A DNA stretch of 64,000 bases. It comes from Protonemura montana. Lineage: Eukaryota > Arthropoda > Insecta > Plecoptera > Nemouridae. Shown here one piece after another: positions 9,256-63,618 of this stretch. Numbering within the stretch: the stretch's first letter is position 1; each line of letters starts with the position of its first letter. Made by a program: the position numbers and the translations under genes. The notes under the pieces were generated by a model, which did no database searches, was not told the DNA's origin, and was given only the letters and a program-made list of their open reading frames with translations. Location: contig OX387612.1 in assembly GCA_947568835.1 (NCBI GenBank), positions 2,108,001 through 2,172,000 of the forward strand. The letters are read 5' to 3'.

Positions 9256-9258
9256 ATG
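9256..9258 (+). CDS. Gene 1 exon 1 (initiator codon only)
   Basis: ATG is followed immediately by a consensus donor (AAGATG|GTAAGTTC), so exon 1 contributes only the initiator Met in phase 0. The call rests on the parallel with genes 2, 4 and 5, where a tiny start exon precedes the signal-peptide exon. The 5' UTR boundary cannot be set. Confidence 0.6.
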
Positions 9259-9634
9259 GTAAGTTCATTTTGTAAATCTAGATCTTGCGAATGAAATTTG
9301 TGGTGCGTTGTTGATTATATTTTTATTTTGTTGAGAAAGTGGGCACCCATCATGCTTCTCTCGGGAAGTACTTAACAATCACCAACGATTCTTTCTAGTG
9401 CGTGATGTTAAAATTTTGCCAATAAATATTATATATTTATTTGTATATCTGTGGACTTCAATCATTTCTTCCATTTTTAGCATTGGAAAAGATTTTTTTT
9501 TTTAATCTGGAAAAAGTATAAACATAATCGGGATCCAGAGCTGGCAAACTTTAATTGATAAAACAAATTCAATTTTGGTATTTTTTTATTTTTTTTTTAC
9601 TGTTTTGTAATTTTTGTCCCGGTTTTTGTCCCAG

Positions 9635-9732
9635 GTGTCGACTGTTTGCTGCGCTTGCTGGCTGTTGGCTGCGCTTGCACACGTGACGCTCTCGGCCACC
9701 GCTGCGCAAAACCAAGACACGAACTTTAAAAG
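9635..9732 (+). CDS. Gene 1 exon 2 (signal peptide)
   Basis: It starts after the acceptor TTTTTGTCCCAG (phase 0) and ends TTTAAAAG|GTACAAAC in phase 2. Joined to exon 1 it reads MVSTVCCACWLLAALAHV and continues LSATAAQNQD, a typical signal peptide with likely cleavage after the TAA/TAAQ region. Intron 1 is 376 bp. Intron 2 (9733-13294) is 3.6 kb and filled by SINE and minisatellite DNA. Confidence 0.75.
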
Positions 9733-9906
9733 GTACAAACAAAGAGAGGGTAAAAAATATAAGAATTCGTTTTATTTCTTTAACAGCGTTTGGAAGTGAA
9801 TCAATACGATGACAGTATAGCGTGACAGAATCCTATAAGTCTATAAAAAAAAATTGAATATTTCGTTCAAAACCACTAAAATTAACAGTTTGCCTTGATT
9901 AACACA

Positions 9907-10995
9907 TGGAAGCTAAGCAACACTGCGCTGAGTCAGGTATTGGATGGGTGATCATCATACACATGACCAGTTCTGTTCGGAAGAGAGGCTGGAGGGATGA
10001 AAGTTAAGCAACACTGCTCTGAGTCAGGTATTGGATGGGTGACCATCATACACATGACCAGTTCTGTTCGGGAGAGAGGTTGGAGGGATGAAAGCTAAGC
10101 AATACTGCGCTGGGTCAGGTATTGGATGGGTGACCATCATATACATGACCAGTTCGGTTCGGGAGAGAGGTTGGAGGGATGAAAGTTAAGCAACACTGCG
10201 CTGGGTCAGGTATTGGATGGGTGACCATCATACACATGACCAGTTCTGTTCGGGAGAGAGGTTGGAGGGATGAAAGTTAAGCAACACTGCGCTGGGTCAG
10301 GTATTGGATGGGTGACCATCATACACATAACCAGTTCTGTTCGGGAGAGAGGTTGGAGGGATGAAAGTTAAGCAACACTGCGCTGGGTCAAGTATTGGAT
10401 GGGTGAACATCATACACATTACCTGTTCTGTTCGGGAGAGAGGTTGGAGGTATGAAAGTTAAGCAACACTGCGCTGGGTCAGGTATTGGATGGGTGACCA
10501 TCATACACATTACCTGTTCTGTTCGGGAGAGAGGTTGGTGGGATGAAAGTTAAGCAACACGGCGCTGGGTCAGGTATTGGATGGGTGACCATCATACACA
10601 TTACCAGTTCTGTTCGGGAGAGAGGTTGGAGGGATGAAAGTTAAGCAACACTGCTCTGAGTCAGGTATTGGATGGGTGACAATCATACACATGACCAGTT
10701 CTGTTCGGGAGAGAGGTTGGAGAGATGAAAGTTAGTACAGCAACTTCACTCGCCTTGCTTATCAACCTCTCGACAGCATGGATTTGTGGAGGAATCCTGT
10801 TCTTCACGTTGTACCGTCCTTCGGAAGGGACGTTAAGCCGGTGGTCCCCTTGGTGCTCTTCGACAGGAGTAGGCTACGTGCCGGCACCGGGTTTCCCCTC
10901 CTCCCTTCTAGGCTTAGTACGTGTATTCCAACCCTCGTCATAGAACCTGTGCCACAGCGCCAGTTGTCAAAACACCGTATCGTTTAAACCGCATC
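9907..10995 (+). mobile_element. 5S-derived SINE with nine tandem heads (copy 2), in gene 1 intron 2
   Basis: About nine 91-92 bp head units (5S-like core plus ACCAGTTCTGTTCGGGAGAG spacer) run from about 9907 to 10735, followed by one body and a tail ending near 10990 (GTTGTCAAAACACCGTATCG). The heads differ from each other by a few substitutions, consistent with local duplication after or during insertion. Confidence 0.85.
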
Positions 10996-11516
10996 AAATG
11001 AAGGAAGCTGATATTGAATCCATTTAGCTCAAGAATACCAGTATTTTGTTGAGCGTACACCGGTTATTGACGTCACCACCTGGTAATTGGTGTGTCCACT
11101 TATAGTCGAGTCGAGACCAGCAGATTCCTAGCCTCTGGTCTGGCCCCAAGTCTTCTTGCCCAATATACATAACCAAGGTGCGGAATTACTGAGATAAATG
11201 ACTCTAAGATTTCGCTTGGCGACTGGCGATTGGTACACTTGCTTTCGTTCCATGGCGACCATATCGATTAAATCTGTTTTTTTTTTGTTTATTTCAATAC
11301 TTTATTTGAATTCATTAAAAAAAAGGGGCTAGTTTCGGATTTGTTTAAAAACATTCAAGCGGACATCAGTTCGTTCGAGGCGTTGCGAAAATACAACGCT
11401 TGTCTTTGACATCATATTATTATTACAAAAGTTTCGAAACCAAAATTTAAATTGCATTGTAAACAAGCGTATAATTTATTTTTCTTCAGTATTTATTATT
11501 ATTTTTTTGGTTCAAA
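10996..11516. other. Unremarkable intronic sequence of gene 1
   Basis: Part of intron 2 between the SINE and the 43-bp array. Nothing recognised. Confidence 0.4.
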
Positions 11517-13281
11517 ATCATTGGGTAGACTGCGTACACTCGCGTGCATTGACCACTACATCACTGGGTGGACTGCGTTCACCCACGTGCATTGACCACT
11601 ACATCACTGGGTGGACTGCGTTCACCCACGTGCATTGACCACTACATCACTGGGTGGACTGCGTACACCCGCGTGAATTGACCACTACATCACTGGGTGG
11701 ACTGCGTACACCCACGTGCATTGACCACTACATCACTGGGTGGACTGCGTACACCCGCGTGCATTGACCACTACATCACTGGGTGGACTGCGTAAACCCG
11801 CATGCATTGACCACTACATCACTGGGTGGACTGCGTACACCCGCGTGCATTGACCACTACATCACTGGGTGGACTGCGTACACCCGCGTGCATTGACCAC
11901 TACATCACTGGGTGGACTGCGTACACCCGCGTGCATTGACCACTACATCACTGGGTGGACTGCGTACACCCGCGTGCATTGACCACTACATCACTGGGTG
12001 GACTGCGTACACCCGCGTGCATTGACCACTACATCACTGAGTGGACTGCGAACATCCGCGTGCATTGACCACTACATCACTTGGTGGACTACGTACACCC
12101 GCGTGCATTGACCACTATATCACTGGGTGAACTGCGTACACCCGCGTGCATTGACCACTACATCACTGGGTGGACTGCGTACACCCGCGTGCATTGACCA
12201 CTACATCACTGGGTGGACTGCGTACATCCGCGTGCATTGACCACTACATCACTTGGTGGACTACGTACACCCGCGTGCATTGACCACTACATCACTGGGT
12301 GGACTGCGTACACCCGCGTGCATTGACCACTACATCACTGGGTGCACTGCGTTCACCCGCGTACATTGACCATTACATCACTGGGTGGACTGCGTACACC
12401 CGCGTGCATTGACCATTACATCACTGGGTGGACTGTGTACACCCGCGTGCATTGACCGCTACATCACTAGGTAGACTGCGTACACCCGCTTGCATTGACC
12501 ACTACATCACTGGGTGGACTGCGTACATCCGCGTGCATTGACCACTACATCACTGGGTGGACTGCGTACACCCGCGTGCATTGACCGCTACATCACTGGG
12601 TGGACTGCGTACACCCGCGTGCATTGACCACTACATCACTGGGTGGACTGCGTACACCTGCGTGCATTGACCACTACATCACTGGGTGGACTGCGTACAC
12701 CCGCGTGCATTGACCGCTACATCACTGGGTGGACTGCGTACACCTGCGTGCATTGACCACTACATCACTGGGTAGACTGCATACACCCACGTGCATTGAC
12801 CACTACATCACTGGGTGGACTGCGTACACCCGCGTGCATTGACCACTACATCACTGGGTGGACTGCGTACACCCGCGTGCATTGACCACTACATCACTTG
12901 GTGGACTGCGTACACCCGCGTGCATTGACCACTACATCACTTGGTGGACTGCGTACACCCGCGTGCATTGACCACTACATCACAGGGTAGACTGCGTACA
13001 CCCACGTGCATTGACCACTACATCACTGGGTGGACTGCGTACACCCGCGTGCATTGACCACTAGATCACTGGGTGGACTGCGTACACCCGCGTGCATTGA
13101 CCACTACATCACTGGGTAGACTGCGTACACCCGCGTGCATTGACCACCACATCACTGGGTGGACTGCATACACCCGCTTGCATTGACCACTACATCACTG
13201 GGTGTACTGCGTACACCCACGTACATTGACCACTACATCACTGGATGGACTGCGTACACCCGCGTACATTGACCACTACAT
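11517..13281 (+). repeat. 43-bp minisatellite, about 41 copies, abutting a splice acceptor
   Basis: The unit combines TGGGTGGACTGCGTACACCC with GCGTGCATTGACCACTACAT and CAC. The final, truncated unit runs straight into the polypyrimidine tract GTTTGTTTTTCAG of gene 1 exon 3, so the array ends only 13 bp before the exon. The consensus unit contains no AG dinucleotide and carries a TTGAC word that fits the loose branch-point pattern; only a few variant units (GGGTAGACT) contain AG. Confidence 0.95.
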
Positions 13282-13294
13282 GTTTGTTTTTCAG

Positions 13295-15332
13295 ACTTTA
13301 TTCTCAAAATATCGGCCTTGCCGCTGAAGCTCAGAAACCAGAAGGTTTTCTTCCAACGGGCCATGAGTTCCATGCACCACTTCTCAGTGGACCTCGTCCA
13401 GATACTCTGCAAATTCAGATGGCAAAGAACCAGGTGACCACCTCATACATAGATGCCAGATTTGCCCAAGTGAGGGACACACTTCTTCGCATCGACGCCC
13501 GAATCGAACACGTTGCCAGATCGACTCAGTCGAGCGTCACGAACCCCGCGCTGAACGACATTCGTGCCGCAGTCAGCGCTACTAACGTGTTGCTGGCAAC
13601 ACTGTCTTTCCGGAAAGCGCCTCTTGCGCAACGTCAGATTCACTTGCAAACGTTGTTGGCGAAAGTCTTGGAGATTTTCGACAGCGCGAAACGATTACAG
13701 GCGAGCAGCGGCGTTGACGACAGCTTCTTGGACGAGATCGCGAACGGTGTTGGTGAGATTGAGGTTAGGGTGATCAAAGTTGACGCGCTGTTGCAGCAAA
13801 TGATCATCGAGAAAAGTCATGACAACCAAAATGTGAGACCCAATTCACCTTACGTCACAGAAACGGCAATTCCGACGTTAGATTTTGGACTGTTCCGACC
13901 TGATAACGATGGTCGCTTTGATTTGGCCGAAACAACGGAAACTACTTCAAAAGAAATATTACCTTCGGTTTATACGGTGACAGAGACAGTAAATTTGCCT
14001 CCAGAAATGTCAACAAAAACTATCACAATACAGGATCAAAGATCAACGCAATGTCCCGAGCAACAAGTGGTGACTAAGACTGACATATTATTCCAGCCCC
14101 TGCTCGTGGTAACGTTAACTGACGTGCGGACATCGTCGATAACAGTTACCGGCGAGGTTGTCACCGAGATAATTACCTTGCCCGGCACGACAATGACAGA
14201 GATTATTCAGTTGAATGTGACAAAAACTTTGCCCATAGAAACAATCACTCAATTGTCCACCCACTTCATTGCCGTGTCCGACATAGCAGATCTCTTGGGG
14301 ACCGTGACCGACACGCTGACGCTGCTCAGTGGAACGTTTTCAAAAGATCAGACGCGCGAAGCCGAGACGATCGAAGAGACGGTGACGGTGACAAGATTCC
14401 TGACGTTAAGAGCGGATCGGAACACACTTGGGGCGATTGCGTTGCATGATGCGAGTGCTCCTGTCGCAACGGTGACTGTTATGAAAGACGAATGCGCATG
14501 TCCAGCTCGAGAAACGGTCATTGAGTCATCAACGATGCACGATGAAGGAGTTAAATTTATCAGCAGTCAAAGCCAAGGCTTTGTGCAAACAAGCGAATCA
14601 ACTTTATCGCTCCGCGCAACGCTAACAGAAACTAGTTTGGCCATTGACGTGTCTCTTCCAGCTGCAAGCAATCAGCCATCGACTTTACAAACTGACAAAG
14701 ATGCAAAAATCAGCAAACGAACACAAAGTACGACAGAAACGGTAGCTACTTCTGCCAAAGAGACAGCGCAAACAGAACTATTTGTCACAAAAGTCCACGA
14801 GTCGGTCGTGTCTGATCTTGCCATCGACTTGGTCGACCGAACTGGACCGAGTGTTAGTTCATCAACGCAGGTGTCATTGCAAGACGCGTCAGTCATCAGC
14901 AGTGCAGACCATAACATTGAAGGTTCAATGAGTGACTCGACTTTACACCTGCCAGAAGTGACCAGAGTTTCTCAAGACATTGGTACGGTAACAGCTACAT
15001 CGACGCCTGCTCTAGCCATGGACCTTCCTACTGAAGAAATGACCCCAGCCATCAGCAGTGCAAAGGAAACGACAGTGATTTCAGAAAATGAACATATTGA
15101 CCATCACGATCAGCCAATGACAGAGTCTGGGTCAGTCTCTGATTTTAAAACATCTTACATTTCTTTCACACCGGATATGGTCGATGAATTAACAACATTA
15201 TTCGCCACTCAAACATACGGCGTTATTGCAATATCTGCACTTCCGGTAGATTATCCGGTTGTATTTCAAGTGTCGAACGGAGATCATGAGTCAACGTCCA
15301 CTGATATTGACAATATGAGCAACAACCATTGA
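13295..15332 (+). CDS. Gene 1 exon 3: secreted TVT-rich protein with N-terminal helical domain
   Basis: The exon starts after GTTTGTTTTTCAG in phase 2 (AG|A gives Arg34) and runs to TGA at 15330-15332, giving a protein of about 712 aa. After the signal peptide comes a helical, heptad-like region (about residues 85-190; words DTLLRIDARIEHV, LAQRQIHLQTLLAKVLEIF, SFLDEIANGVGEIEV). Next is a Thr/Val block with alternating strands (about 255-450; VTETVNL, EETVTVTRFLTL) and Cys-Pro motifs (QCPEQ, ECACPARE). A Ser/Thr-rich region follows (about 450-640), then a short hydrophobic C-terminus (ATQTYGVIAISALPVDYP). Only three cysteines are present in this exon. It is the longest member of the cluster, and its helical region resembles the C-terminal domains of genes 3-5. 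The family is not recognised; an extracellular location is inferred from the signal peptide, and a structural or matrix role is a guess. Confidence 0.85.
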
Positions 15333-15975: not shown

Positions 15976-15999
15976 ATGGCGATGGCTCCTCGTGAACAG
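15976..15999 (+). CDS. Gene 2 exon 1 (start exon, 8 codons)
   Basis: Reads MAMAPREQ and ends CGTGAACAG|GTGAGTGAC, a strong donor in phase 0. Intron 1 (16000-17347) contains a minus-strand 5S-SINE. A second in-frame ATG lies two codons downstream and could also initiate. Confidence 0.7.
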
Positions 16000-16410: not shown

Positions 16411-17285
16411 TGGTGTTTAACGACGCATTGTTTTGACAACTGGCCATGCGGCACTGGTCTAATGGCGTCGCTAAAATAGTGACGATGTCAATGACGATAG
16501 CCTAGAGGAAACAAAGGGAAATCCGGTGCCGGCACGTAGCCTACTCCTGTCGAAGACCAAGGGGACCACCGGCTTAACGTCCCTTCCGAAGGACGGTACA
16601 ACGCGAACAACAGGATTCCTCCACAAATTCATGCTGTCGAGAGGTTGATAAGCAAGGCGAGTGAAGTTGCTGTACTAACTTTCATCCCTCCAACCTCTCT
16701 CCCGAACAGAACTGGTCATGTGTATGATGGTCATCCATCCAATACCTGACCCAGCGCAGTGTTGCTTAACTTTCATCCCTCCAACCTCTCTCCCGAACAG
16801 AACTGGTCATGTGTATGATGGTCATCCATCCAATACCTGACCCAGCACAGTATTGCTTAACTTCCATCCATCCAACCTCTCTCCCGAACAGAACTGGTCA
16901 TGTGTATGATGGTCATCCATCCAATACCTGACCCAGCGCAGTGTTGCTTAACTTTCATCCCTCCAACCTCTCTCCCGAACAGAACTGGTCATGTGTATGA
17001 TGGTCATCCATCCAATACCTGACTCAGCGCAGTGTTGCTTAACTTTCATTCCTCCAGCCTCTCTCCCGAACAGAACTGGTCATGTGTATGATGGTCACCC
17101 ATCCAATACCTGACACAGCGCAGTGTTGCTTAACTTTCATCCCTCCAACCTCTCTCCCGAACAGAACTGGTCATGTGTATGATGGTCATGTGAATAATGG
17201 TCATGTGTATGATGGTCACCCATCCAATACCTGATCCAGCGCAGTGTTGCTTAACTTTGGTGATTTCACGAGAACGGGTGTTTCC
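16411..17285 (-). mobile_element. 5S-derived SINE (copy 3) in gene 2 intron 1
   Basis: Read on the minus strand, it begins with about six or seven tandem 5S-like heads (17285 to about 16680), continues into the body and ends with the tail at about 16411 (plus-strand GTGGTGTTTAACGACGCATT). One head-proximal unit includes the longer 5S-like segment with GTGTTTCCAACACGCC seen in the 24.7 kb array. Confidence 0.8.
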
Positions 17286-17347
17286 AACACGCCAAGCCAT
17301 TCGTTTTTTTTTTTACGAACCTGAGAATGAAAGATTTTTATTTCCAG

Positions 17348-17475
17348 CGTTTCTTCGCGATCGCAGCGCTTGCCGTGGCCGTGGCACTAACTTCGTCGAA
17401 TGGCTTCTTGGTTTCCGCCGACGATGCTGGAGGTCGCCACCGCAACCTGAGAGCGCCCACCGAGCCAATCATCAG
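17348..17475 (+). CDS. Gene 2 exon 2 (signal peptide)
   Basis: Starts after TTTTTATTTCCAG in phase 0 and ends CCAATCATCAG|GTAACA in phase 2. Spliced to exon 1 it gives MAMAPREQRFFAIAALAVAV followed by ALTSSNGFLVSADDAGG, a clear signal peptide, then a basic linker (GRHRNLRAP). The G+C content is well above that of the flanking introns. Confidence 0.8.
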
Positions 17476-18900: not shown

Positions 18901-18935
18901 ATTAAATTCATAAAAATGATGTTTCTTCATTCCAG

Positions 18936-20118
18936 AAACCGTCAGGCCAACGTCTTCCCTTTCCACACTGCTATCTTCCCGCAACTAAATATTCGCAACG
19001 CCATATTCGGCGATGCAACGGCAGCCCCCACTACAACCCCCACGACAACCCCCATCCCAAGCCCCGTGACATCAACGCCGTCCACTGAGGTCATCACGGC
19101 GACGACAACCATCATCTTGCCGGCAGCTACCATCACCTTCTTCGCCACTGAGACTGATGTAAAGACGCTTTACTCAACAAAGACTATTGTCAAAGATAAC
19201 GTTTATCTCGCTAAAATCATTCCCTTCGACAGAGCAGCAACCGCAAACCCAGAGTGCATGCTTGAGGTGGTTACAAAAACCCTGACAGATGAGGTAGTAG
19301 GAGGTTGCGTACCATTGACCACAACTTTAACAAAGAACCCTTCCATTACTGCCACACAAACCGTGACCGGAGCACCTGTCACAGAGACTTACAAGTCAAT
19401 GGTTATCAACACTAAATCGACCACAGTTTTAGCTGCACCACATCATACTGTCACTAATATAGTGACAGTTTTCAAGCCTGTCACCGTTAAAAAGAGTCAG
19501 GGTTGCGATTTGGCGACTGTTTACCAAACTGTCACCGAATCTTTGCCGGATTTAGCGAATAAACCGTGCGATTTCCTTCAGACAACTGTCACTGAAAGCG
19601 TGACAGGTCATCAAAGTACTGTCACGCAGTTCGAAGAGCAGACGATCACCGAAACAATGACTGTCGATCCAATAACTGCATGCCCCGGGGCAGTGACCGA
19701 GACTGGTAGCGCTACTAGATTGACTGTCATGAACTATGAGTATGTTACCGAGACGATAACAGAGCGCGCTAGATACCCGTTTAGGTGTTCCGCATCTTTG
19801 ACCACGGCAACCGAGACTATTCGCCCTACTATTACAGTGCCAGCTGTTCAGGTTTCTTTCGTCAAGAAGTTCCAGATGCGTTCGGGATCGGGTTCGAAGT
19901 GCCAGGACACGGTGACGGTGACACCGACCACGCTGACCGCGGAGGTGGTCAACGAGTTTATCAAGGTGACGCGTACTATCGTCAAGAGTAGCTTTGATTT
20001 CGCTGACTCGGGCACGGAGATCATAGTCGTCAGGCCAACTGTCACAGTGACAGATACACAGAATGTTGATGTCACTGTCACAGAGATCATGGCTGACAGG
20101 ATGTGCGCCTTGAAATAA
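18936..20118 (+). CDS. Gene 2 exon 3: secreted TVT-repeat protein
   Basis: Starts after GTTTCTTCATTCCAG in phase 2 (AG|A, Arg51) and ends TAA at 20116-20118; the protein is about 444 aa. A Pro/Thr linker (about residues 76-105, TTTPTTTPIPSPVTSTP) precedes a long Thr/Val region running to the C-terminus. That region shows diverged blocks, most opening with a Cys (QGCDLATVYQTVTE, KPCDFLQTTVTESVT, ACPGAVTETG, FRCSASLTTATETI, KCQDTVTVTPTT). Eight cysteines occur in the exon, an even number that would allow disulfides. Alternating Thr/Val predicts beta strands, and the Thr density makes O-glycosylation plausible. Unlike genes 3-5 it has no helical C-terminal domain. An AATAAA at 20114-20119 overlaps the stop codon. 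Function unknown. Confidence 0.85.
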
Positions 20119-20545: not shown

Positions 20546-20974
20546 GTTTGCCTAATGCACCGTATAGTTCAAATCGTTCTAACGAGTGACCAATTAAAAA
20601 AGGAAATGTCGATTGATTGACTGCCAGGATGGTCCAACTCCGCATAAGTGCCTTAATTTCTTGGCTGTCGATCATTCAGGTACCACTGACAGGTGCCAAG
20701 CACCCTGCGGCCTAATTTCTTGTTTTTAAGAACGGCTAACAAGAAATGTGGTCTACCTCTTGTTTTTTTTTTAAATCATTAGGCGAAAATTGAATACCTG
20801 TAGTTTTTTTTATTTATCGACCTTTGTTTCACCTGCTGCCTAGCACCTTCCTAGGGCCGCCGGCTTCGTGCCAATGCGAATATTTTGTTGTTTCTTTCAA
20901 AAAAACTCTTATAAGTTGATTCTATTTACTTGCGATTATTATTTCTTAATGCCCACAATCCTTAACAAACACAA

Positions 20975-21592
20975 CCGAACGGTTTGTCGTATTGAAAACA
21001 CCGGTTCACATGAGATCACCGAAGTTAAGCAACACTGCGCTGAGTTAGGTATTGGATGGGTGACCATCATACACATGACCAGTTCTGTTCGGGAGAGAGG
21101 TTGGAGGGATGAAAGTTAAGCAACATTACGCTGGGTCAGGTATTGGATGGGTGACCATCATACACATGACCAGTTCTGTTCGGGAGAGAGGTTGGAGGGA
21201 TGAAAGTTAAGCAACATTACGCTGGGTCAGGTATTGGATGGGTGACCATCATACACATGACCAGTTCTGTTCGGGAGAGAGGTTGGAGGGATGAAAGCTA
21301 GTACAGCAACTTCACTCGCCTTGCTTATCAACCTCTCGACAGCATGGATTTGTGAAGGAATCCTGTTGTTCGCGTTGTACCGTTCTTCGGAAGGGACGTT
21401 AAGCCGGTGGTCCTCTTGGTCTTCGACAGGAGTGGTCTACGTGCCGACACCAGGTTTCCCCTCCTCCCTTCTCGGCTAGGTTAGGATTATCATTATCCTC
21501 ATTATCATCCACTCATTCACCGACGCCATTATACCAGTGACGCATGGCCAGTTGTCAAAACAGTGCGTCGTTAAACACCATAATCAATCACA
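20975..21592 (+). mobile_element. 5S-derived SINE, full length with three heads (copy 6)
   Basis: The first head contains a longer 5S-like segment (GAAAACACCGGTTCACATGA, then GATCACCGAAGTTAAGCAAC). Two further heads of the usual type follow, then the body and the tail ending GTGCGTCGTTAAACACCATA followed by ATCAATCA. This is one of the best-preserved copies in the window. Confidence 0.85.
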
Positions 21593-24617: not shown

Positions 24618-24654
24618 GGCGTTTTTTCTGCATAAGGTTTAAAAAAATGGTTAG

Positions 24655-29550: not shown

Positions 29551-29555
29551 CGACT

Positions 29556-29875
29556 ATGAGGAAAATTAAATACCATACCTTTACAATTTTGTATCAATGT
29601 AACCGTTCAATCCGTTTTGAAATCACTGAATTATATAAAGCAATTAAAAACTTAAACTTGGATGTAAATATAATTACTTTCTCAGAACATTGGCTAAAAT
29701 CGAACGAAGGAGATTGTATAAATACAATTTTAATACAATCTATATTCAATAATTGTTCTACTGGGCTTCCAACTTCAATCAATCTCTACACGAGATGTTT
29801 ACTCTCACGGTGGGACTTGTATTTTCGCTCGACAAAACTGGAAGTACTTCTGTCAACGCCTGGGTTATTATATCT
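29556..29875 (+). pseudogene. Decayed non-LTR retrotransposon endonuclease fragment
   Basis: One frame reads ILYQCNRSIRFEITELYKAI followed by LNLDVNIITFSEHWLKSNE. These fit the start of the LINE-type endonuclease domain (usual N-V-R-S, then I-x-E-x-W-L). After a frameshift between about 29735 and 29785 another frame reads LLGFQLQSISTRDVYSHGGT and CIFARQNWKYF, fitting the next conserved block, which normally has a H-G-G-V/T-C-I core. A stop follows at about 29875. No reverse transcriptase domain follows, so only a broken 5' part of the domain is present. Family assignment comes from motif order seen here. Confidence 0.6.
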
Positions 29876-34925: not shown

Positions 34926-35186
34926 CAGCTTAATTTTGTTTTGCTGTGCTGCCCTGAACAGAGTCTATGACCCGGTTTTAAAAGGTCCGCTAGGAACCTA
35001 ACAGTCCGTTAATTTGTTATTTGCTTAGCAACAGCCAATCATAATATGACTTTTATTTTTTAACGGTCTGTTACGAGTTACTGAAAAACCGACCCTAAGC
35101 TCCCCGGGCTAGGATAAGACCACAGCCAATCCAGCTAACAGGTTGTTAAATTGTGACTTAGCAAAATGTGCACTGTCCCACAGAGT
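34926..35186. other. Sequence just upstream of gene 3 exon 2
   Basis: Last part of the proposed intron 1, with the acceptor GTGCACTGTCCCACAG at 35171-35186. The pyrimidine tract is weak, which keeps the alternative of initiation at ATG 35166 open. Confidence 0.4.
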
Positions 35187-35344
35187 TTCCGCTTGGTGCT
35201 GGGCATCTGTTTCCTGGCGTCGCTCTCAGCGGCGACGGTCGCTGATAACGTCATCGTCAGCTCTCCAGTTCAGCTGCAAGGATCGGTGAATAATGAAGTT
35301 CGATCAGACAGGAGGTACGAGCACCGAGATGTTGTCGAGAGCAG
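35187..35344 (+). CDS. Gene 3 exon 2 (signal peptide)
   Basis: After CCCACAG the frame reads SFRLVLGICFLASLSAATVA, then DNVIVSSPVQLQGSVNNE, ending GAGAGCAG|GTAACA in phase 2. The first codons (AGTTTCCGC) resemble those of gene 5 exon 2 (AGCTTCCAG), which also directly follow CAG. Likely cleavage is near AATVA-DN. If translation starts at ATG 35166 the exon would extend to 35166 and add MCTVPQ. Confidence 0.75.
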
Positions 35345-45317: not shown

Positions 45318-46896
45318 CGTGCGGCGCTACAACTTACAAGATCTCTCCGAAATCCGGCATCGCCCCTCAATCAACACATACCTTTTCCCCCAACTCTCGA
45401 TCAACCACGATCTCGACTGGATGCACCCTCACTCCCAAAACCAGCACCAGCACCAGAACCAGAATCCCCACAACCAATACCACCCCGAGCAGTCGCATCA
45501 CACAAACCGCCCTGAACACTCCTATCAGCCCCAACGCCCACCACGCCCACCACCAAACCATCACAAAGTAACAAAAACCGTAACCGAAACCGTAACCAAA
45601 GGTCCAACCGTGTTCTGGACCGAATTCGTCCCGTTCTGCACCCTCGACACGTTGCCATCATCTTGCAGCGTGGCCACCGAAGACGAGACAGTGACAACAA
45701 CAGCCACGTCAAATGTCCTCAGAGTCACCGAAAGCACCTTCACATACGAGGATGCCAACTGCCTGGACATTGTCTCGGATTTCACAACGGACGTATTAAC
45801 AATCTACGTGACCACTACAGAAGCGCCAGTGATAACAGTGACGGCCACCGTTGGCAACTCGATAACGGACACCAGAACTGCCATAGAACCGACCACAGTC
45901 GTCGTGACCAGTTCAACAACGACGGTCCTTTACGAAAAGTCAATAAACCAGGACAACTGTTACGATTTCGATTTCACGACAAGGGTACCGTTTCCCGGCC
46001 CGACCTTTCTGAGCACGAGTACCGTGTCGTATAGTGACACCGACAAGTGGTCCTACAACGATCTGGCGTCGTGCACGAATGCCGTCACAGAGTTGGTGGG
46101 TGAAGACCCTACCCTCTATCTGGACGTGCTTGGTGTACAGTTTAGCACCATCGTGGAGACGACGACACTCACCTCAGATTTGGTGTGCTCGAACTATATG
46201 AACATGGTCACCGAAACGCTCCCAGAGACCGAAGTGGTCGTACTTTACGAAGAGACTCTCTACACAGAATCAGTGTCCACGCCTGGTGGCCCTACCTTCA
46301 CGTGTCCGGACACTGTGACCGTGACCACAACCAACGTCGTCCCTCAGGTTACTACTACGACCAGGGGAGACGTGTTTACAAATGCCTATACGGTGATGGT
46401 CACTGCGTATGAATTAGTGCCGTTTTATTGGTGCACTAATGGCAAATCGACGAGTAGTGAGTTCCACGTCGTGCGAGAGACGGTGACGAGCGTGGTAACT
46501 GTTGCCGTTCCCAGCACCAGACTGATCCCTGAGCAGGCGTGCATGACGGGGACGAGTCTGCCAGATCATGGATGTCCGCAAGAGTTTTTAATGGCGGTGA
46601 AAATGATCATGATAGAGATGACAGAGATTTTCATTGAATTGAGGCATTTGCTGCACGATTTGTTGCCGCACGTTCACGAGCACGACCGGAAGATCATTGA
46701 GAGGTTCAACAACTTGCCGTTGCCGGAGATTTTAGGGAATTTACCACTGAAAGAGCAGCGTGACGAGGCGTTGTGGTCGCAGAAACAGTTGCAGGAGTTG
46801 AAGGAGATGATCAAGGATGCACAGAACAAAAAGGAGGTGCCGAGTAGGTTGTTTGACAAGATCGACATGGTCGTGTCGAGACTTCACTCTCTCTAG
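45318..46896 (+). CDS. Gene 3 exon 3: secreted TVT protein with His/Gln/Pro linker and helical C-terminus
   Basis: Entered in phase 2 (AG|C, Ser58), stop TAG 46894-46896; the protein is about 583 aa. Regions in order: a linker rich in His, Gln, Asn and Pro (about residues 85-145; HSQNQHQHQNQNPHNQ, PQRPPRPPPNHH); a Thr/Val region of about 320 residues with regularly spaced Cys and strands such as KTVTETVTKGPTVFW, APVITVTATVGNS and TCPDTVTVTTTNVV; and a helical domain from about 478 to the end (FLMAVKMIMIEMTEIFIEL, QLQELKEMIKDAQNK). Ten cysteines occur in this exon. The helical domain ends RLFDKIDMVVSRLHSL, comparable to genes 4 and 5. G+C is higher than the introns. Unknown family; a cross-linked extracellular fibre or coat component is a reasonable inference. 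Confidence 0.87.
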
Positions 46897-48627: not shown

Positions 48628-48642
48628 ATGGCAACGTACCAG
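48628..48642 (+). CDS. Gene 4 exon 1 (start exon, 5 codons)
   Basis: Reads MATYQ and ends GTACCAG|GTAACTC, phase 0. Intron 1 is 471 bp (48643-49113). The choice rests on the start-exon pattern shared with genes 2 and 5. Confidence 0.7.
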
Positions 48643-49113: not shown

Positions 49114-49214
49114 TTTGCAGTCAATGTTGCCGTGTTCCTGCTGTACGTGGTCGTCGTATCGGCAACCTACGCAGAGGGCGACATCATTCTCACGCCCTCA
49201 AGCAGCAACCTGGG
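49114..49214 (+). CDS. Gene 4 exon 2 (signal peptide)
   Basis: After TATTTTCTTTTAG the frame reads FAVNVAVFLLYVVVVSATYA then EGDIILTPSSSNLG, ending AACCTGG|GGTAACT with two bases of Gly carried over (phase 2). The likely cleavage site is after ATYA. The 129-bp array starts only about 80 bp beyond the donor. Confidence 0.8.
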
Positions 49215-49985: not shown

Positions 49986-49997
49986 GGCTTAAATATT

Positions 49998-50770: not shown

Positions 50771-50826
50771 GAATTTCAATTACGTTTACCAGTGAATAAT
50801 TAACCAAGCGACAATTTTAATTCCAG

Positions 50827-51484
50827 TGACGCACACCAACCCCAACGATTTGTCGACATCCAACCGTCAACTGTGACAGTGACAGGTGTTCAACGCACGA
50901 CGACAGTCATCAAGACGACCGTGGTGACAGTTGTCGAAACAACCGTCATCAACGCGGCGACCACAACCACAGCAATCATCACAATACCAGTGACAATCAC
51001 TATGAGTCCAGTCACCACCGTAGTTTACCAACAACAAGCGTGCCCCAGCCAGGGCGAAGCCATAAACAATGCTCCAAATTCGCTTGCTGCCCCGCTAAAT
51101 ATTTCGAACCATAATATAGTTTTTGTATCAGATTTTGTTAAAATTAACCGAACTGTAGACCTAAAAAGTCCTGACATTGACAAGGAATTTGATAAGGTAA
51201 TACGTGTATACCCTACCAGTTTGTTTTCTTCTGTGATGGCTTCTCTGAGCCAGGTGGTGGCTGAAATGAAGAGACGTGGTTCCCGTGGGGACCTCGTTGA
51301 GCGGTATGAGGTACTGTCAAACAATAATGTGATGTATAAGCAGTCTGAACCTAGGATGGGAGAATTGGAGGAGATGGCAGGAGAGGTATTGGATGAAGCA
51401 AGAAAGGGTGGCCATGAGTCGGACGCGTTCTTCGAGAGGATGGAGAAGTTTGTTGGATTCTTGGAGACGATTTATGCGAGATAG
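50827..51484 (+). CDS. Gene 4 exon 3: short secreted TVT protein with helical C-terminus
   Basis: Starts after CAATTTTAATTCCAG in phase 2 (GG|T, Gly39) and stops at TAG 51482-51484; the protein is about 257 aa. One Thr/Val block (about residues 50-110) contains TVIKTTVVTVVETTVINA and ends VVYQQQACP, followed by a variable linker and a helical domain from about residue 165 to the end (FSSVMASLSQVVAEMKRRG, GELEEMAGEVLDEARKGG, DAFFERMEKFVGFLETI). Gene 5 gives a clear alignment over the TVT block (TVIKTVLSTVVETTIVNA, VVYVRQVCP), so these two are close paralogues. One Cys only in this exon, so no internal disulfide network as in genes 2 and 3. Function unknown. Confidence 0.85.
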
Positions 51485-52544: not shown

Positions 52545-55500
52545 GAATCACAATTAATCAACGAGTGTAAATTTGCTTATCGAAGTTTTTCTTTCCTTAG
52601 CGGTGACAATGATGACTTGCATACTGCTTTAATCCTACAGACAGCCAACCCTTATCCCTAAGTCGCGTCAATGCGTCGTCAATCCATCACTTGAAAGCTT
52701 CAATTGCAAACGCTTTTTTACCACTTCCCAGCAAGAAATTGAAGATGAATGGGTTGCCTTACAAACAACACGTGACGTACCATGGTAGGGAAGCAGAATA
52801 TCAAGCACGTCCCAAAACATCGGTCGCTAGTTGGGGCGCAGTTTACATGGCTGCAGTTTACATGGCTGCAGTTAACATGGCTGCAGTTTACATGGCTGCA
52901 GTTTACATGGCTGCAGTTTACATGGCTGCAGTTTACATGGCTGCAGATAACATGGCTGCAGTTTACACGGCTGCAGTTTACATGGCTGCAGTTTACATGG
53001 CTGCAGTTTACATGGCTGCAGTTTACATGGCTGCAGTTTACATGGCTGCAGTTAACATGGCTGCAGTTTACATGGCTGCAGTTTACATGGCTGCAGTTTA
53101 CATGGCTGCAGTTAACATGGCTGCAGTTTACATGGCTGCAGTTAACATGGCTGCAGTTTACATGGCTGCAGTTAACATGGCTGCAGTTAACATGGCTGCA
53201 GTTTACATGGCTGCAGTTTACATGGCTGCAGTTTACATGGCTGCAGTTTACATGGCTGCAGTTTACATGGCTGCAGTTAACATGGCTGCAGTTTACATGG
53301 CTGCAGTTTACATGGCTGCAGTTTACATGGCTGCAGTTTACATGGCTGCAGATAACATGGCTGCAGTTTACACGGCTGCAGTTTACATGGCTGCAGTTTA
53401 CATGGCTGCAGTTTACATGGCTGCAGTTTACATGGCTGCAGTTTACATGGCTGCAGTTTACATGGCTGCAGTTAACACGGCTGCAGTTAACATGGCTGCA
53501 GTTTACATGGCTGCAGTTTACATGGCTGCAGTTTACATGGCTGCAGTTAACATGGCTGCAGTTTACACGGCTGCAGTTTACATGGCTGCAGTTTACATGG
53601 CTGCAGTTTACATGGCTGCAGTTTACATGGCTGCAGTTTACATGGCTGCAGTTAACATGGCTGCAGTTTACATGGCTGCAGTTAACATGGCTGCAGTTTA
53701 CATGGCTGCAATTAACATGGCTGCAGTTTACATGGCTGCAGTTTACATGGCTGCAGTTTACATGGCTGCAGTTAATATGGCTGCAGTTAACATGGCTGCA
53801 GTTAACATGGCTGCAGTTAACATGGCTGCAGTTTACATGGCTGCAGTTTACATGGCTGCAGTTTACATGGCTGCAGTTTACATGGCTGCAGTTTACATGG
53901 CTGCAGTTTACATGGCTGCAGTTAACATGGCTGCAGTTAACATGGCTGCAGTTAACATGGCTGCAGTTTACATGGGTGCAGTTTACATGGCTGCAGTTTA
54001 CATGGCTGCAGTTAACATGGCTGCAGTTTACATGGCTGCAGTTAACATGGCTGCAGTTTACATGGCTGCAGTTTACATGGCTGCAGTTTACATGGCTGCA
54101 GTTAACATGGCTGCAGTTTACATGGCTGCAGTTTACATGGCTGCAGTTAACACGGCTGCAGTTAACATGGGTGCAGTTTACATGGCTGCAGTTAACATGG
54201 CTGCAGTTTACATGGCTGCAGTTTACATGGCTGCAGTTTACATGGCTGCAGTTTACATGGCTGCAGTTAACATGGCTGCAGTTTACATGGCTGCAGTTTA
54301 CATGGCTGCAGTTTACATGGCTGCAGTTTACATGGCTGCAGTTAACATGGCTGCAGTTTACATGGCTGCAGTTTACATGGCTGCAGTTTACATGGCTGCA
54401 GTTTACATGGCTGCAGTTAACATGGCTGCAGTTTACATGGCTGCAGTTAACATGGCTGCAGTTTACATGGCGGCAGTTAACATGGCTGCAGTTTACATGG
54501 CTGCAGTTTACATGGCTGCAGTTTACATGGCTGCAGTTAATATGGCTGCAGTTTACATGGCTGCAGTTTACATGGCTGCAGTTAACATGGCTGCAGTTTA
54601 CATGGCTGCAGTTTACATGGCTGCAGTTTACATGGCTGCAGTTTACATGGCTGCAGTTTACATGGCTGCAGTTTACATGGCTGCAGTTTACATGGCTGCA
54701 GTAAACATGGCTGCAGTTTACACGGCTGCAGTTTACATGGCTGCAGTTTACATGGCTGCAGTTTACATGGCTGCAGTTTACATGGCTGCAGTTTACATGG
54801 CTGCAGTTAACATGGCTGCAGTTTACATGGCTGCAGTTTACATGGCTGCAGTTTACATGGCTGCAGTTTACATGGCTGCAGTTAACATGGCTGCAGTTTA
54901 CACGGCTGCAGTTTACATGGCTGCAGTTTACATGGCTGCAGTTTACATGGCTGCAGTTTACATGGCTGCAGTTTACATGGCTGCAGTTAACATGGCTGCA
55001 GTTAACATGGCTGCAGTTAACATGGCTGCAGTTTACATGGCTGCAGTTAACATGGCTGCAGTTTACATGGCTGCAGTTTACATGGCTGCAAATTACATGG
55101 CTGCAGTTATTATGGCTGCAGTTTACATGGCTGCAGTTTACATGGCTGCAGTTAACATGGCTGCAGTTTACATGGCTGCAGTTTACATGGCAGCAGTTTA
55201 CATGGCTGCAGTTTACATGGCTGCAGTTTACATGGCTGCAGTTGACATGGCTGCAGTTAACATGGCTGCAGTTAACATGGCTGCAGTTAACATGGCTGCA
55301 GTTAACATGGCTGCAGTTTACATGGCTGCAGTTTACATGGCTGCAGTTACATGGCTGCAGTTTACATGGCTGCAGTTTACATGGCTGCAGTTTACATGGC
55401 TGCAGTTTACATGGCTGCAGTTAACACGGCTGCAGTTAACATGGCTGCAGTTTACACGGCTGCAGTTAACATGGCTGCAGTTTACATGGCTGCAGTTTAC

Positions 55501-58500
55501 ATGGCTGCAGTTAACATGGCTGCAGTTTACATGGCTGCAGTTTACATGGCTGCAGTTAACACGGCTGCAGTTTACATGGCTGCAGTTTACATGGCTGCAG
55601 TTAACACGGCTGCAGTTTACATGGCTGCAGTTTACATGGCTGCAGTTAATATGGCTGCAGTTAACATGGCTGCAGTTAACATGGGTGCAGTTTACATGGC
55701 TGCAGTTAACATGGCTGCAGTTTACATGGCTGCAGTTTACATGGCTGCAGTTTACATGGCTGCAGTTTACATGGCTGCAGTTAACATGGCTGCAGTTTAC
55801 ATGGCTGCAGTTTACATGGCTGCAGTTTACATGGCTGCAGTTTACATGGCTGCAGTTAACATGGCTGCAGTTTACATGGCTGCAGTTTACATGGCTGCAG
55901 TTTACATGGCTGCAGTTTACATGGCTGCAGTTAACATGGCTGCAGTTAACATGGCTGCAGTTAACATGGCTGCAGTTTACATGGCTGCAGTTAACATGGC
56001 TGCAGTTTACATGGCTGCAGTTTACATGGCTGCAGTTTACATGGCTGCAGTTTACATGGCTGCAGTTTACATGGCTGCAGTTAATATGGCTGCAGTTTAC
56101 ATGGCTGCAGTTTACATGGCTGCAGTTAACATAGCTGCAGTTTACATGGCTGCAGTTTACATGGCTGCAGTTTACATGGCTGCAGTTTACATGGCTGCAG
56201 TTTACATGGCTGCAGTTTACATGGCTGCAGTTTACATGGCTGCAGTTTACATGGCTGCAGTTTACATGGCTGCAGTTTACATGGCTGCAGTTAACACGGC
56301 TGCAGTTAACATGGCTGCAGTTTACACGGCTGTAGTTAACATGGCTGCAGTTTACATGGCTGCAGTTTACATGGCTGCAGTTTACATGGCTGCAGTTTAC
56401 ACGGCGCAGTTTACATGGCTGCAGTTTACATGGCTGCAGTTAACATGGCTGCAGTTAACATGGCTGCAGTTAACATGGCTGCAGTTTACATGGCTGCAGT
56501 TTACATGGCTGCAGTTTACATGGCTGCAGTTAACATGGCTGCAGTTTACATGGCTGCAGTTTACACGGCTGCAGTTTACATGGCTGCAGTTAACATGGCT
56601 GCAGTTAACATGGCTGCAGTTTACACGGCTGCAGTTTACATGGCTGCAGTTAACATGGCTGCAGTTTACACGGCTGCAGTTTACATGGCTGCAGTTTACA
56701 TGGCTGCAGTTTACACGGCTGCAGTTTACATGGCTGCAGTTTACATGGCTGCAGTTTACATGGCTGCAGTTTACATGGCTGCAGTTTACATGGGTGCAGT
56801 TTACATGGCTGCAGTTTACATGGCTGCAGTTTACATGGGTGCAGTTTACATGGCTGCAGTTTACATGGGTGCAGTTTACATGGCTGCAGTTTACATGGCT
56901 GCAGTTTACATGGGTGCAGTTTACATGGGTGCAGTTTACATGGCTGCAGTTAACATGGCTGCAGTTTACACGGCTGCAGTTTACATGGCTGCAGTTAACA
57001 TGGCTGCAGTTTACACGGCTGCAGTTAACATGGCTGCAGTTTACATGGCTGCAGTTTACATGGCTGCAGTTAATATGGCTGCAGTTAACATGGCTGCAGT
57101 AAATATGGCTGCAGTTTACATGGCTGCAGTTTACATGGCTGCAGTTAACATGGCTGCAGTTTACATGGCTGCAGTTTACATGGCTGCAGTTTGCATGGCT
57201 GCAGTTTACATGGCTGCAGTTTACATGGCTGCAGTTTACATGGCTGCAGTTAACATGGCTGCAGTTAACATGGCTGCAGTTTACATGGCTGCAGTTTACA
57301 TGGCTGCAGATAACATGGCTGCAGTTTACATGGCTGCAGTTAACACGGCTGCAGTTAACATGGCTGCAGTTTACACGGCTGCAGTTTACATGGCTGCAGT
57401 TTACATGGCTGCAGTTTACATGGCTGCAGTTAACATGGCTGCAGTTTACATGGCTGCAGTTAACATGGCTGCAGTAAACATGGCTGCAGTTTACATGGCT
57501 GCAGTTTACATGGCTGCAGTTAGCATGGCTGCAGTTAACATGGCTGCAGTTTACATGGCTGCAGTTAACATGGCTGCAGTAAACATGGCTGCAGTTTACA
57601 TGGCTGCAGTTTACATGGGTGCAGTTTACATGGCTGCAGTTTACATGGGTGCAGTTTACATGGCTGCAGTTTACATGGCTGCAGTTAACATGGGTGCAGT
57701 TTACATGGGTGCAGTTTACATGGCTGCAGTTTACATGGCTGCAGTTTACATGGCTGCAGTTTACACGGCTGCAGTTTACATGGCTGCAGTTAACATGGCT
57801 GCAGTTTACATGGCTGCAGTTAACATGGCTGCAGTTTACATGGCTGCAGTTTACATGGCTGCAGTTAACATGGCTGCAGTTAACATGGCTGCAGTTAATA
57901 TGGCTGCAGTTTACATGGCTGCAGTTTACATGGCTGCAGTTAACATGGCTGCAGTTTACATGGCTGCAGTTTACATGGCTGCAGTTTACATGGCTGCAGT
58001 TTACATGGCTGCAGTTTACATGGCTGCAGTTTACATGGCTGCAGTTAACATGGCTGCAGTTAACATGGCTGCAGTTTACATGGCTGCAGTTTACATGGCT
58101 GCAGTTAACATGGCTGCAGTTTACATGGCTGCAGTTAACATGGCTGCAGTTTACATGGCTGCAGTTTACATGGCTGCAGTTTACATGGCTGCAGTTAACA
58201 TGGCTGCAGTTTACATGGCTGCAGTTTACATGGCTGCAGTTTACATGGCTGCAGTTTACATGGCTGCAGTTAACATGGCTGCAGTTTACACGGCTGCAGT
58301 TAACATGGCTGCAGTTAACATGGCTGCAGTTAACATGGCTGCAGTTAGCATGGCTGCAGTTAACATGGCTGCAGTTTACATGGCTGCAGTTAACATGGCT
58401 GCAGTTAACATGGCTGCAGTTTACATGGCTGCAGTTTACACGGCTGCAGTTTACATGGCTGCAGTTAACATGGCTGCAGTTAACATGGCTGCAGTTTACA

Positions 58501-59115
58501 TGGCTGCAGTTTACATGGCTGCAGTTAACATGGCTGCAGTTAACATGGCTGCAGTTTACATGGCTGCAGTTTACATGGCTGCAGTTTACATGGCTGCAGT
58601 TTACATGGCTGCAGTTTACATGGCTGCAGTTTACACATGCGCACAATACAAAAACACTTGGGGAGCAGTTTATAGGGCCGCAGAAAACAGAACTGCAGAA
58701 AACACGTTGAGGCGCAGAATACAGAGGTGCACTTTATGCCGTGACAGAATTCGTCATAATTTACGCAAAAGCACGGCAATTTCAAAAATGTTCATCTCAT
58801 CTTGAGATCAGACAAATAGTAACAATGAAACCGAGGTCCACGTCAGTCGGTGCGTGGCGTCAAATTACGTCCAGCGAGTAGCTCGGACTCGCTGTCTCCT
58901 CATTACCTCTACAAACATTCATGGCAGTTCAGAACCTACATTTTTGTACAGCCCATCAAAGGTTAAAACTAGGCAAGATGGACGTTCTAACAAAAACTAT
59001 TTCAACTGGGTTTTGAATGCTAAAAGAAGAACAACTAAATTTTCCAACGTTTGGTTACTTGTACTAGTTACTTTATCAAGGGTCAGAACAGTCCTGACAA
59101 TTTTCCGATAGCAAA
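52545..59115 (+). mobile_element. Dispersed composite element, copy C (about 386 internal 15-bp units)
   Basis: The left flank from ATTCGAATCACAATTAATCA through CCACTTCCCAGCAAGAAATT and TAGTTGGGGCGCAG matches copy A almost base for base, and so does the right flank from GCGCACAATACAAAAACAC through TTTCCAACGTTTGGTTACTT. The two copies differ chiefly in array size. No protein-coding capacity of its own is evident. Confidence 0.8.
52842..58634 (+). repeat. Giant 15-bp minisatellite TTTACATGGCTGCAG, about 386 copies (5.8 kb)
   Basis: Head-to-tail 15-bp units; the dominant polymorphism is TTTAC versus TTAAC, with rarer ACACGG, GGGTGCAG and GATAAC forms. Higher-order structure exists: the rare pair GATAACATGG then TTTACACGG recurs 405 bp apart (27 units) at about 52946 and 53351. 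Single-base deletions near 55348 and 56404 shift frames. Every unit carries CTGCAG and CATG palindromes. Frames are open in several registers on both strands because no unit contains a stop there; the minus-strand Cys-Ser-His-Val-Asn reading and the plus-strand Met-Ala-Ala-Val-Tyr reading are judged non-coding. Confidence 0.97.
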
Positions 59116-59925: not shown

Positions 59926-59927
59926 AA

Positions 59928-60814: not shown

Positions 60815-60829
60815 ATGGCCGCCACGATC
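60815..60829 (+). CDS. Gene 5 exon 1 (start exon, 5 codons)
   Basis: Reads MAATI, ending CACGATC|GTGAGTTGG, phase 0. The context CAACATGGCC is favourable for initiation. Intron 1 (60830-62450) contains the 36-bp SINE-derived array. Confidence 0.7.
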
Positions 60830-61117
60830 GTGAGTTGGTTTCTTTTCTGACAAGTTAGCTTTTCAAATCTTGCTGAAGTCAAGCCGAACTAATTGGGGAG
60901 GTATATGATTTAATTGCTTCAAACTTATGTCACTATTTACAGCGTTTATTGACAAAAATGAATTAATAAAAACAATAAAATATAATTATTTAGAATATGT
61001 TTTGTTTTGTTTTAAAATTTCAGTCCTTGAATGCGATAAATATTTTCTATGATATATCAACACTCGCACTGTTTCTCAAAGGTTAAGCATTTTCTTCGGT
61101 GCTAGTGAAAAATGATA

Positions 61118-62270: not shown

Positions 62271-62450
62271 TAATCATTGTTATATTGTTGACTTTGTGTG
62301 ATTGGTAGAACCGTTAGCTAAAATGGCCGACCACACAGTTGACTTGCAGCATCATCCAAACACAACATTGGTGAAGATGGCCATTTTAATTATCGTGTAT
62401 CCAACGAAGAAAATTACTATGAAGTCTATTTCAATCCTGGGTATTTGCAG

Positions 62451-62584
62451 AGCTTCCAGTTGACGACGTTGTTGGCGCTGCTGTCGGTCGTCACGCTTCA
62501 AGATGGCGTCCACGCTGAGCTGGCAGCGCCCCGGTGGCAAGCCATCAAACCATCGCGCATGTCCGCGTACGTCAGGAGAGTCAG
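62451..62584 (+). CDS. Gene 5 exon 2 (signal peptide)
   Basis: After TGGGTATTTGCAG the frame reads SFQLTTLLALLSVVTLQDGV then HAELAAPRWQAIKPSRMS, ending AGAGTCAG|GTATGAG in phase 2. The likely cleavage site is after GVHA. The first residues SFQL resemble SFRL of gene 3 exon 2. Confidence 0.8.
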
Positions 62585-62699
62585 GTATGAGGAGAAATGT
62601 TGCAAAAATGAAACATAAGGCAAATCCTAGAAGATCCTAATTCCAAAATTGTGTTGATAATCGCAGAAATCGTAAAACTAGTGAAATTCTTCCAGCTAA

Positions 62700-62810
62700 A
62701 CAGAATCTAGGTTAGTTTGATCATCATTCTCATCATCATCCAATCATTTATCGACGCCATAAGACCAATGCCAGTTGTAAAAACAATGTGTAAGCTAAAC
62801 ATCAATAATT
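62700..62810 (+). mobile_element. SINE tail fragment in gene 5 intron 2
   Basis: CATCATCATCCAATCATTTA with ATCGACGCCATAAGACC and a degraded TTAAAC end; the tail only, in the 310-bp intron 2. Confidence 0.6.
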
Positions 62811-62894
62811 ATCCTTTTTTAATTCTTTATGAAAACTGGTGCTTAGACAAAGAAAAAGTAGAGATAGAATAAAAATGAATTCCAAAATTTGCAG

Positions 62895-63618
62895 CGACGA
62901 AAATAACAAACGCAGAATATCGGGCGCAGAGTTGCCAACCGTCACTAGGACAGCGACCGAGCTGCATACTTTGACCGTCATCAAAACAGTTCTCTCGACC
63001 GTCGTGGAAACAACGATCGTCAACGCCCTCCGAGAAACTTCAATCTACGTGCCGGTCACTGTCACTGTCACTGCGGCTCCAGAGACGATGGTCGTCTACG
63101 TGCGTCAAGTCTGCCCTGTAAGAGATTTCCTACCAGTAGACAATGGTGATCCCGAGCCCGAGTCGGATGAGTCGGAAGCGGAACCAGTTGTTGGTAACGG
63201 GTTCATGAATCCAGAAACTGGGAACGTGCAGCAAGAGGATCAGGGGATAAATGTGCCACAGAAAGATGAGCCTGTTAAAATAGCAGATTCAGATGTTGAA
63301 GATTCAGGATCTGAAGGGCTAGATGTGCCCGAAGACGAGAGTCTAGAGTCGTTGGTCAGTTATTTGAACGAGTTTCACGAAGTAGTCGGCCATCTTGATG
63401 TGCCGCGCAATCGCCGAAAGGTGTTGCTGAGCTTTGTTAAGTACACTTCGGAGGAATCGTTGGGACAAACGACGCTCGCGCAGAGAATGGTCATCAAGGA
63501 CCAGTTGAAGTCGCTGTGTGAAGTAGGGATGTTAGTTGGAGACGATTCGGAGCCATTTTTCGAAATGTTGGCGGGTTTTGTCAAGTATTTGAAAATATCC
63601 GCGAAGAAAATCGTGTAG
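62895..63618 (+). CDS. Gene 5 exon 3: secreted TVT protein with acidic linker and helical C-terminus
   Basis: Starts after CCAAAATTTGCAG in phase 2 (AG|C, Ser50), stop TAG 63616-63618; the protein is about 290 aa. The TVT block (about residues 65-120) contains TVIKTVLSTVVETTIVNA and VVYVRQVCP. Next comes a strongly acidic linker (about 125-195; DPEPESDESEAEP, DVEDSGSEGLDVPEDE), then a helical domain to the end (LVSYLNEFHEVVGHL, LAQRMVIKDQLKSL, PFFEMLAGFVKYLKI). Two cysteines. An upstream in-frame ATG at 62876 lies in the intron and is not favoured because it would remove the signal peptide. Closest relative in the window is gene 4. Confidence 0.85.

Follow-up and report, generated by a model that had tools for sequence, protein, structure and literature searches.

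We analysed a 64,000-nucleotide stretch of the genome of the plecopteran Protonemura montana (contig OX387612.1, forward-strand positions 2,108,001 to 2,172,000; C15:2108001-2172000), here called the window, which holds genes for putatively secreted proteins rich in threonine (Thr) and valine (Val), the TVT proteins. Flanks of first 30 kb and then 60 kb per side were added, giving a combined region of 184 kb in which all positions below follow the window numbering, and the genome searched comprised 258,480,905 bases in 34 contigs, with 11 scaffolds of more than 12 Mb. Contig C34 (15,885 bases, of which the first 10,000 were read) is an animal mitochondrial genome: translated with code 5 it encodes cox1, confirmed by a sequence match in the PDB, and what read as cox2, atp6, cox3 and nad2. 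A tRNA-Leu with anticodon TAA sits between cox1 and cox2, an arrangement characteristic of Pancrustacea, and nad2 is preceded by tRNA-Gln and tRNA-Met. One scaffold starts with CCTAA repeats. These features, along with the cuticle-domain matches described below, point to an arthropod and most probably to an insect. Nine genes, G0 to G8, are spread across about 84 kb: five in the window, three more downstream and one at the left edge. The original prediction of five genes was thus too low, since a search of the flanks for copies found members on both sides. G1-G8 form a single run on the plus strand, and G0 lies on the opposite, minus strand. The gene models are as follows (nt, nucleotides; Cys, cysteine).

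1..294, minus: G0 exon 3, 5' part (the exon spans 294 to -1173), an inverted near-copy of G8
1525..1622, minus: G0 exon 2, signal-peptide exon, 98 nt, phase 0 in and phase 2 out, donor GTACAA
9256..9258, plus: G1 exon 1 candidate, ATG only, donor ATG/GTAAGT, plausible and unproved
9635..9732, plus: G1 exon 2, signal peptide
13295..15332, plus: G1 exon 3, 678 residues, Thr/Val-rich, C-terminal helical domain not detected
15976..15999, plus: G2 exon 1 candidate, 24 nt
17348..17475, plus: G2 exon 2, signal peptide
18936..20118, plus: G2 exon 3, 393 residues, Thr 21.6%, 8 Cys (spacings including 38, 35, 38), helical domain not detected
35184..35344, plus: G3 exon 2 candidate, signal peptide, followed by a 10-kb intron; not the top candidate in its interval
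45318..46896, plus: G3 exon 3, 525 residues, Cys spacings near 38
46570-46893, plus: G3 C-terminal helical domain, a weak assignment (leave-one-out E 0.65)
48628..48642, plus: G4 exon 1 candidate, 15 nt
49114..49214, plus: G4 exon 2, signal peptide
50827..51484, plus: G4 exon 3, 218 residues, one TVT unit, C-terminal helical domain at 51158-51481
60815..60829, plus: G5 exon 1 candidate, 15 nt, weak, rival candidates scoring equally
62451..62584, plus: G5 exon 2, signal peptide; an alternative acceptor would move the start to 62460
62895..63618, plus: G5 exon 3, 240 residues, one TVT unit, C-terminal helical domain at 63304-63615
68141-68253 and 70089-70617, plus: G6 exons 2 and 3, downstream of the window
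74715-74842 and 77513-78602, plus: G7 exons 2 and 3, downstream of the window
80612-80712 and 81515-82952, plus: G8 exons 2 and 3, downstream of the window

Mature exons, leaders and splice junctions

The five mature exons proposed for the plus strand of the window are stop-free, long and not tandem-repetitive, and their run lengths bear out that they are coding. Stop-free runs of 407, 533 and 700 codons have a chance of about 2e-7, 1e-10 and 5e-15 per 64 kb, and the shorter runs of 226 and 261 codons are expected 0.01 and 0.001 times in the same length. Upstream of each, as the original prediction had it, is a plausible signal-peptide exon with a hydrophobic leader, entered in phase 0 and left in phase 2, with lengths in G1-G5 of 98, 128, 161, 101 and 134 nt and the donors GTACAA, GTAACA, GTAACA, GTAACT and GTATGA that had been listed for these genes. 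GTA as a rule for the donor breaks down in G7, where the donor is GTGAGC.

One scoring rule served for all leader searches: it asked for an exon of 60-200 nt that follows an acceptor, is open in a frame encoding a hydrophobic segment, and ends at a donor in phase 2. Some leaders had already been seen by eye when this rule was drawn up, so it was not a blind one. In seven of the eight genes (G1, G2 and G4-G8), three of them outside the original list, a convincing leader scored highest in the interval from the gene before it to the mature exon. The G3 leader lies 10 kb upstream of its mature exon and ranked below a repeat-derived string. With G3 left out, the real score was reached by 1, 3, 0, 6, 4, 1 and 0 of 40 dinucleotide shuffles for G1, G2, G4, G5, G6, G7 and G8, respectively (combined p 3e-4), and all seven leaders outscored the reverse complement of their own interval. 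Several non-gene strings score as high as the leaders, up to 32.6 in 120 overlapping 4-kb windows on both strands. The exon-3 acceptor imposed phase 2 on the search; when all phases were compared, with phases 0 and 1 run on somewhat different intervals, phase 2 was best in G2 and G4-G8, a phase-1 donor of the same exon was slightly better in G1 (28.1 vs 27.2), and no phase was clearly preferred in G3.

In G3, G4, G6, G7 and G8 the frame of exon 3 contains no ATG from the last stop codon up to the acceptor, and the first methionine inside exon 3 is residue 35, 59, 21, 132 and 29, respectively. G1, G2 and G5 have such an ATG just upstream of exon 3, and these three genes could therefore start unspliced and without a leader. 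The short start exons proposed upstream of the leaders fared unevenly: the 3-nt (9256-9258) and 24-nt (15976-15999) candidates have good donors, and competing candidates exist for the others. Exons of this length are too short for sequence to decide on them, and the first exons are weakly supported throughout. Cleavage sites of the signal peptides were judged by eye.

G0 and G8 belong to an inverted duplication that spans about 4 kb and includes blocks 87-98% identical. Their 478 common codons show 10 synonymous and 10 nonsynonymous differences and one in-frame 30-bp indel, and the ratio of nonsynonymous to synonymous substitution rates (dN/dS) is 0.32; at most 10 nonsynonymous changes out of 20 would have a probability of 0.012 without constraint. 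Exon 2 has retained its phase and splice sites despite a length difference of 3 nt. The pair thus appears to be under purifying rather than diversifying constraint.

The C-terminal domain and the Thr/Val parts

Six of the eight distinct genes, G3-G8, end in about 100 alignable residues with a late [FL]-[FY]-[ED] motif followed by an invariant Val. The limits of this domain were set by eye before a leave-one-out test, in which a hidden Markov model of five genes was searched against the 1926 open reading frames (ORFs) of the 184-kb region with the sixth gene left out. Each omitted gene was outranked only by the five training genes and by G0, the twin of G8, with E values of 2.1e-8 for G7, 4.5e-7 for G6, 5e-5 for G4, 4.3e-4 for G5, 0.004 for G8 and 0.65 for G3, whose tail is top-ranked yet not significant on its own. 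The domain seems clear in G4-G8 and weak in G3. The tails are 13-23% identical to that of G4, and homology between G4 and G5 reaches an E value of 1.8e-7.

An AlphaFold model of the G4 tail is a helical bundle (predicted local distance difference test score, pLDDT, 77.5; predicted template modelling score, pTM, 0.68), as are residues 81-175 of the G6 model (pLDDT blocks 70-93; whole-model mean 60.8, pTM 0.50). Fold matches were generic only. The TVT part of the G6 model is a long two-stranded hairpin with a pLDDT of about 30, a mere hint. The related domain contradicts the earlier statement that the proteins share little else beyond Thr/Val strands and Cys-Pro motifs.

G4-G7 have one alignable TVT unit each, and the mature exons of G5-G7 are 24-26% identical to that of G4. 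When a profile of the G3 units was run on 14 targets, G6 and one unit of G8 outscored every one of 500 shuffles, and for two further targets 14 and 16 of 500 shuffles did as well; among 14 tests these matches carry little weight. The triplet T-[VILF]-T is more frequent than in shuffles in G1 (11 vs 2.9), G2 (17 vs 4.8) and G8 (14 vs 3.1), and falls inside the shuffle range in G3 (10 vs 4.6). G2, G3 and G8 carry 8-12 Cys.

Genome-wide searches with the mature proteins of G1, G2, G3, G5, G6 and G8 and with the G7 tail returned cluster members and one G2 fragment only; each search scored 3-5 candidates, so that remote copies would escape, and G4 was not a query. The G7 tail matched the C-termini of G6 and G4 only, each weakly (E 0.8 and 1.4), and by these searches the helical tail was seen nowhere in the genome outside the cluster. 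The G2 fragment, 129 bp of exon 3 at 97% identity, is on contig C4 (L057, 1505-1632). Neither of the two profiles searched found a relative in the PDB by sequence.

Cuticle genes of the same genome and the surroundings of the cluster

The genome contains 130 matches to the cuticle domain PF00379, and CPR cuticle genes at 13 loci, corresponding to 12 genes of which 11 were placed, served as a control set. Labels as RR-1 or RR-2 were assigned by reading the sequences, and the acceptor of L060 was read by eye. In all six RR-1-type genes the mature exon starts AG/C in phase 2, and in five of them a signal exon with phase 0 in and phase 2 out could be placed (101, 215, 125, 128 and 221 nt); a search for that of the sixth, L067, did not find it. 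The signal exon had the top score across all phases in four of the five, and that of L065, at 25.2 against 26.1 and 25.8 in other phases, was chosen to fit exon 3. The RR-2-like genes L058, L059 and L062 have the leader and mature part in one exon, with exon 1 candidates MFK, MFK and MAFK; L069 resembles this layout, and L070 has phase 0.

An intron within the signal peptide and a short exon 1 are usual, though not universal, in cuticle genes. For Anopheles the figure is 86% of intron-bearing CPR genes split within the leader, and their first exons measure 3-36 nt (PMC2259329). Most CPR genes of Drosophila carry a single intron, placed just behind the opening codons of the signal sequence (PMC2793513). 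As for a short exon 1 of this type in the TVT genes, the phase-0 signal exons were found and exon 1 itself is weakly supported. According to the original prediction, the family is recognised by its exon plan and not by sequence. This view is not supported: the plan is a common cuticle-gene layout that does not define a family, because RR-1-type genes of the same genome share it, and it is sequence that identifies at least five members, probably six. The plan may nevertheless offer a clue to where the TVT genes are deployed, or to the ancestry of their 5' ends.

Farther out, the cluster is flanked by a NACHT-ankyrin gene on its left (L044:2033-6784, plus strand) and by a NACHT gene on its right (L047:861-4316, minus strand), the ankyrin match of the latter being below the cut-off. 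Minus-strand ORFs at 99524-104197 and 120372-123827 are listed with these genes, and the second has the length and first 220 residues of the ORF at 94861-98316. Downstream of G8, a short plus-strand ORF (L020:128-472) has a leader-like hydrophobic stretch and a weak match to SLATT_1, below the cut-off.

Tandem units of 91/92 bp resembling 5S rRNA occur on both strands (20974-21094, 24822-25572 and 17191-17305), and the arrays at 9906-10734, 16676-17189 and 24650-25648 are listed with them; they belong to a dispersed repeat, for which one query containing a stretch of this kind matched the genome 154 times, and look like a 5S-derived short interspersed element or satellite. A 15-bp unit repeated about 387 times (52838-58635) and several arrays with units of 36, 41, 51 and 57 bp lie within introns and spacers, and a 43-bp array (11517-13281) stops 13 bases short of the acceptor of G1 exon 3. 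The plus-strand ORF at 29475-29888 reads like a fragment of a long interspersed element endonuclease and gave no Pfam match at E 0.01.

A possible matrix family and its alternatives

Our best reading of these sequences is that the TVT cluster is a lineage-restricted tandem family with the layout of RR-1 cuticle genes. The leader-like exons and the lack of a hydrophobic C-terminal tail argue for the predicted secretion, and the members on both sides and the related C-terminal domains argue for tandem duplication followed by fast divergence. We lean towards a secreted, matrix-type structural role, and the proteins may function as fibre, adhesive or coat.

Several observations weigh against this reading. 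No Pfam or NCBIfam family scored above the cut-off for G1-G8, so that the matrix role is proposed by analogy. A profile search did not find the helical domain in G1 or G2, which would be members by position, exon plan and composition only. The TVT parts of G1, G2, G3 and G8 match the G4-G7 unit no better than their own shuffles, of which 101, 192, 67 and 93 of 500 scored as well, and a profile of four G3 units matched none of the four G2 units. A regular Cys spacing of about 38 residues is confined to G2 and G3 of the four proteins tested, and G2 holds one borderline hydrophobic stretch of 19 residues (mean 1.74).

It is possible, although we consider it rather unlikely, that these are fast-evolving secreted proteins of another kind, since seminal, egg-coat, salivary and immune-related proteins likewise tend to be encoded in tandem arrays and to combine a leader with a divergent mature part. 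The strong divergence of the tails and of the G5-G7 mature exons would suit such a role, as would the NACHT genes, which have been linked with immunity, on both sides of the cluster; the Thr/Val composition and exon plan, however, resemble those of matrix proteins, and the sole recent pair, G0/G8, shows purifying constraint. Kinship is a question separate from function, and the likelihoods given to the two need not sum to one. We are about equally doubtful that unrelated Thr-rich secreted genes with a common cuticle-type layout lie side by side by chance, the true kin being G4-G8 and perhaps G3. Such an arrangement would explain why the exon plan is also that of CPR genes and why the TVT parts of the tailless G1 and G2 are indistinguishable from shuffles, but G1-G8 form one run on one strand, G1, G2 and G8 share the excess of T-[VILF]-T, and genome searches with G1 and G2 gave no whole copy elsewhere.

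Mispredicted introns, with real mature exons and some leaders that are chance strings or parts of other transcripts, seem very improbable to us. In favour of misprediction are introns of up to 10 kb that contain minisatellites, leader scores of G5 and G6 that 6 and 4 of 40 shuffles attain, equally high scores in strings outside genes, and the ATG just before exon 3 in G1, G2 and G5. Yet the leader tops its interval in seven of eight genes, including the three new ones, all seven beat the reverse complement, and G0 and G8 agree in both splice sites and in phase, even with a 3-nt difference in the length of exon 2.

In our preferred reading of the TVT cluster, each gene would open with a tiny exon and an intron that interrupts the signal peptide, continue with a signal exon left in phase 2, and encode the whole mature protein in a single final exon. 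This protein would begin with a Thr/Val-rich, Cys-containing region that probably forms strands, and in most members a helical bundle of about 100 residues comes after it. The proteins may be exported by an epithelium, where the Thr/Val parts could pack as beta strands, possibly O-glycosylated, and be cross-linked by their cysteines. The helical tail might help the molecules to pair or assemble, a task that terminal domains carry out in other fibrous proteins. A further hypothesis, which we regard as improbable, is that a new lineage-specific fibre or adhesive system arose when the 5' cassette of an RR-1 cuticle gene (exons 1-2) was joined to a Thr/Val strand module that had newly evolved and brought its own helical domain for assembly, followed by tandem expansion; if true, a new matrix-protein family would have been built on borrowed cuticle-gene regulation. 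In any case, the cluster appears to add a structural-looking secreted family outside Pfam and the solved structures, the shared domain of which can now be used as a probe. Relatives in other arthropods may well be known already.

Among known systems, silk or fibroin-type proteins such as spidroins have helical terminal domains, and the TVT genes resemble them in general architecture, with a leader, a possibly strand-forming middle and a helical terminal domain. They differ in that no long tandem array occurs within the five mature exons of the window, where the only repeat is 30 bp at 19025-19054, and a match to the spidroin N-terminal domain had an E value of 7.1, among chance hits. The valine-rich midgut proteins (VMPs) of Lepidoptera are likewise a secreted, Val-rich and lineage-specific family, with several xPA(V/I)xx motifs and an (S/A)PLVQIIV(N/K) core (PMC3843731). 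The core PLVQII is absent from all eight TVT proteins, PA(V/I) occurs in them 0 or 1 times each, and VMPs are Cys-poor, in contrast to G2, G3 and G8. The RR-1 CPR cuticular proteins share with the TVT genes the exon plan and phases, the leader and the arrangement in arrays, and their own first exons are generally short (PMC2259329). The cuticle-type exon plan is by itself no evidence of kinship, and PF00379, the R&R consensus, was not listed in the Pfam scans of G1-G8. Expression in a gland or in moulting epidermis would turn the cluster into a concrete case of a new matrix family on a cuticle-gene layout, set apart from the RR-1 proteins by a Thr/Val-rich mature part and, in six members, a helical tail.

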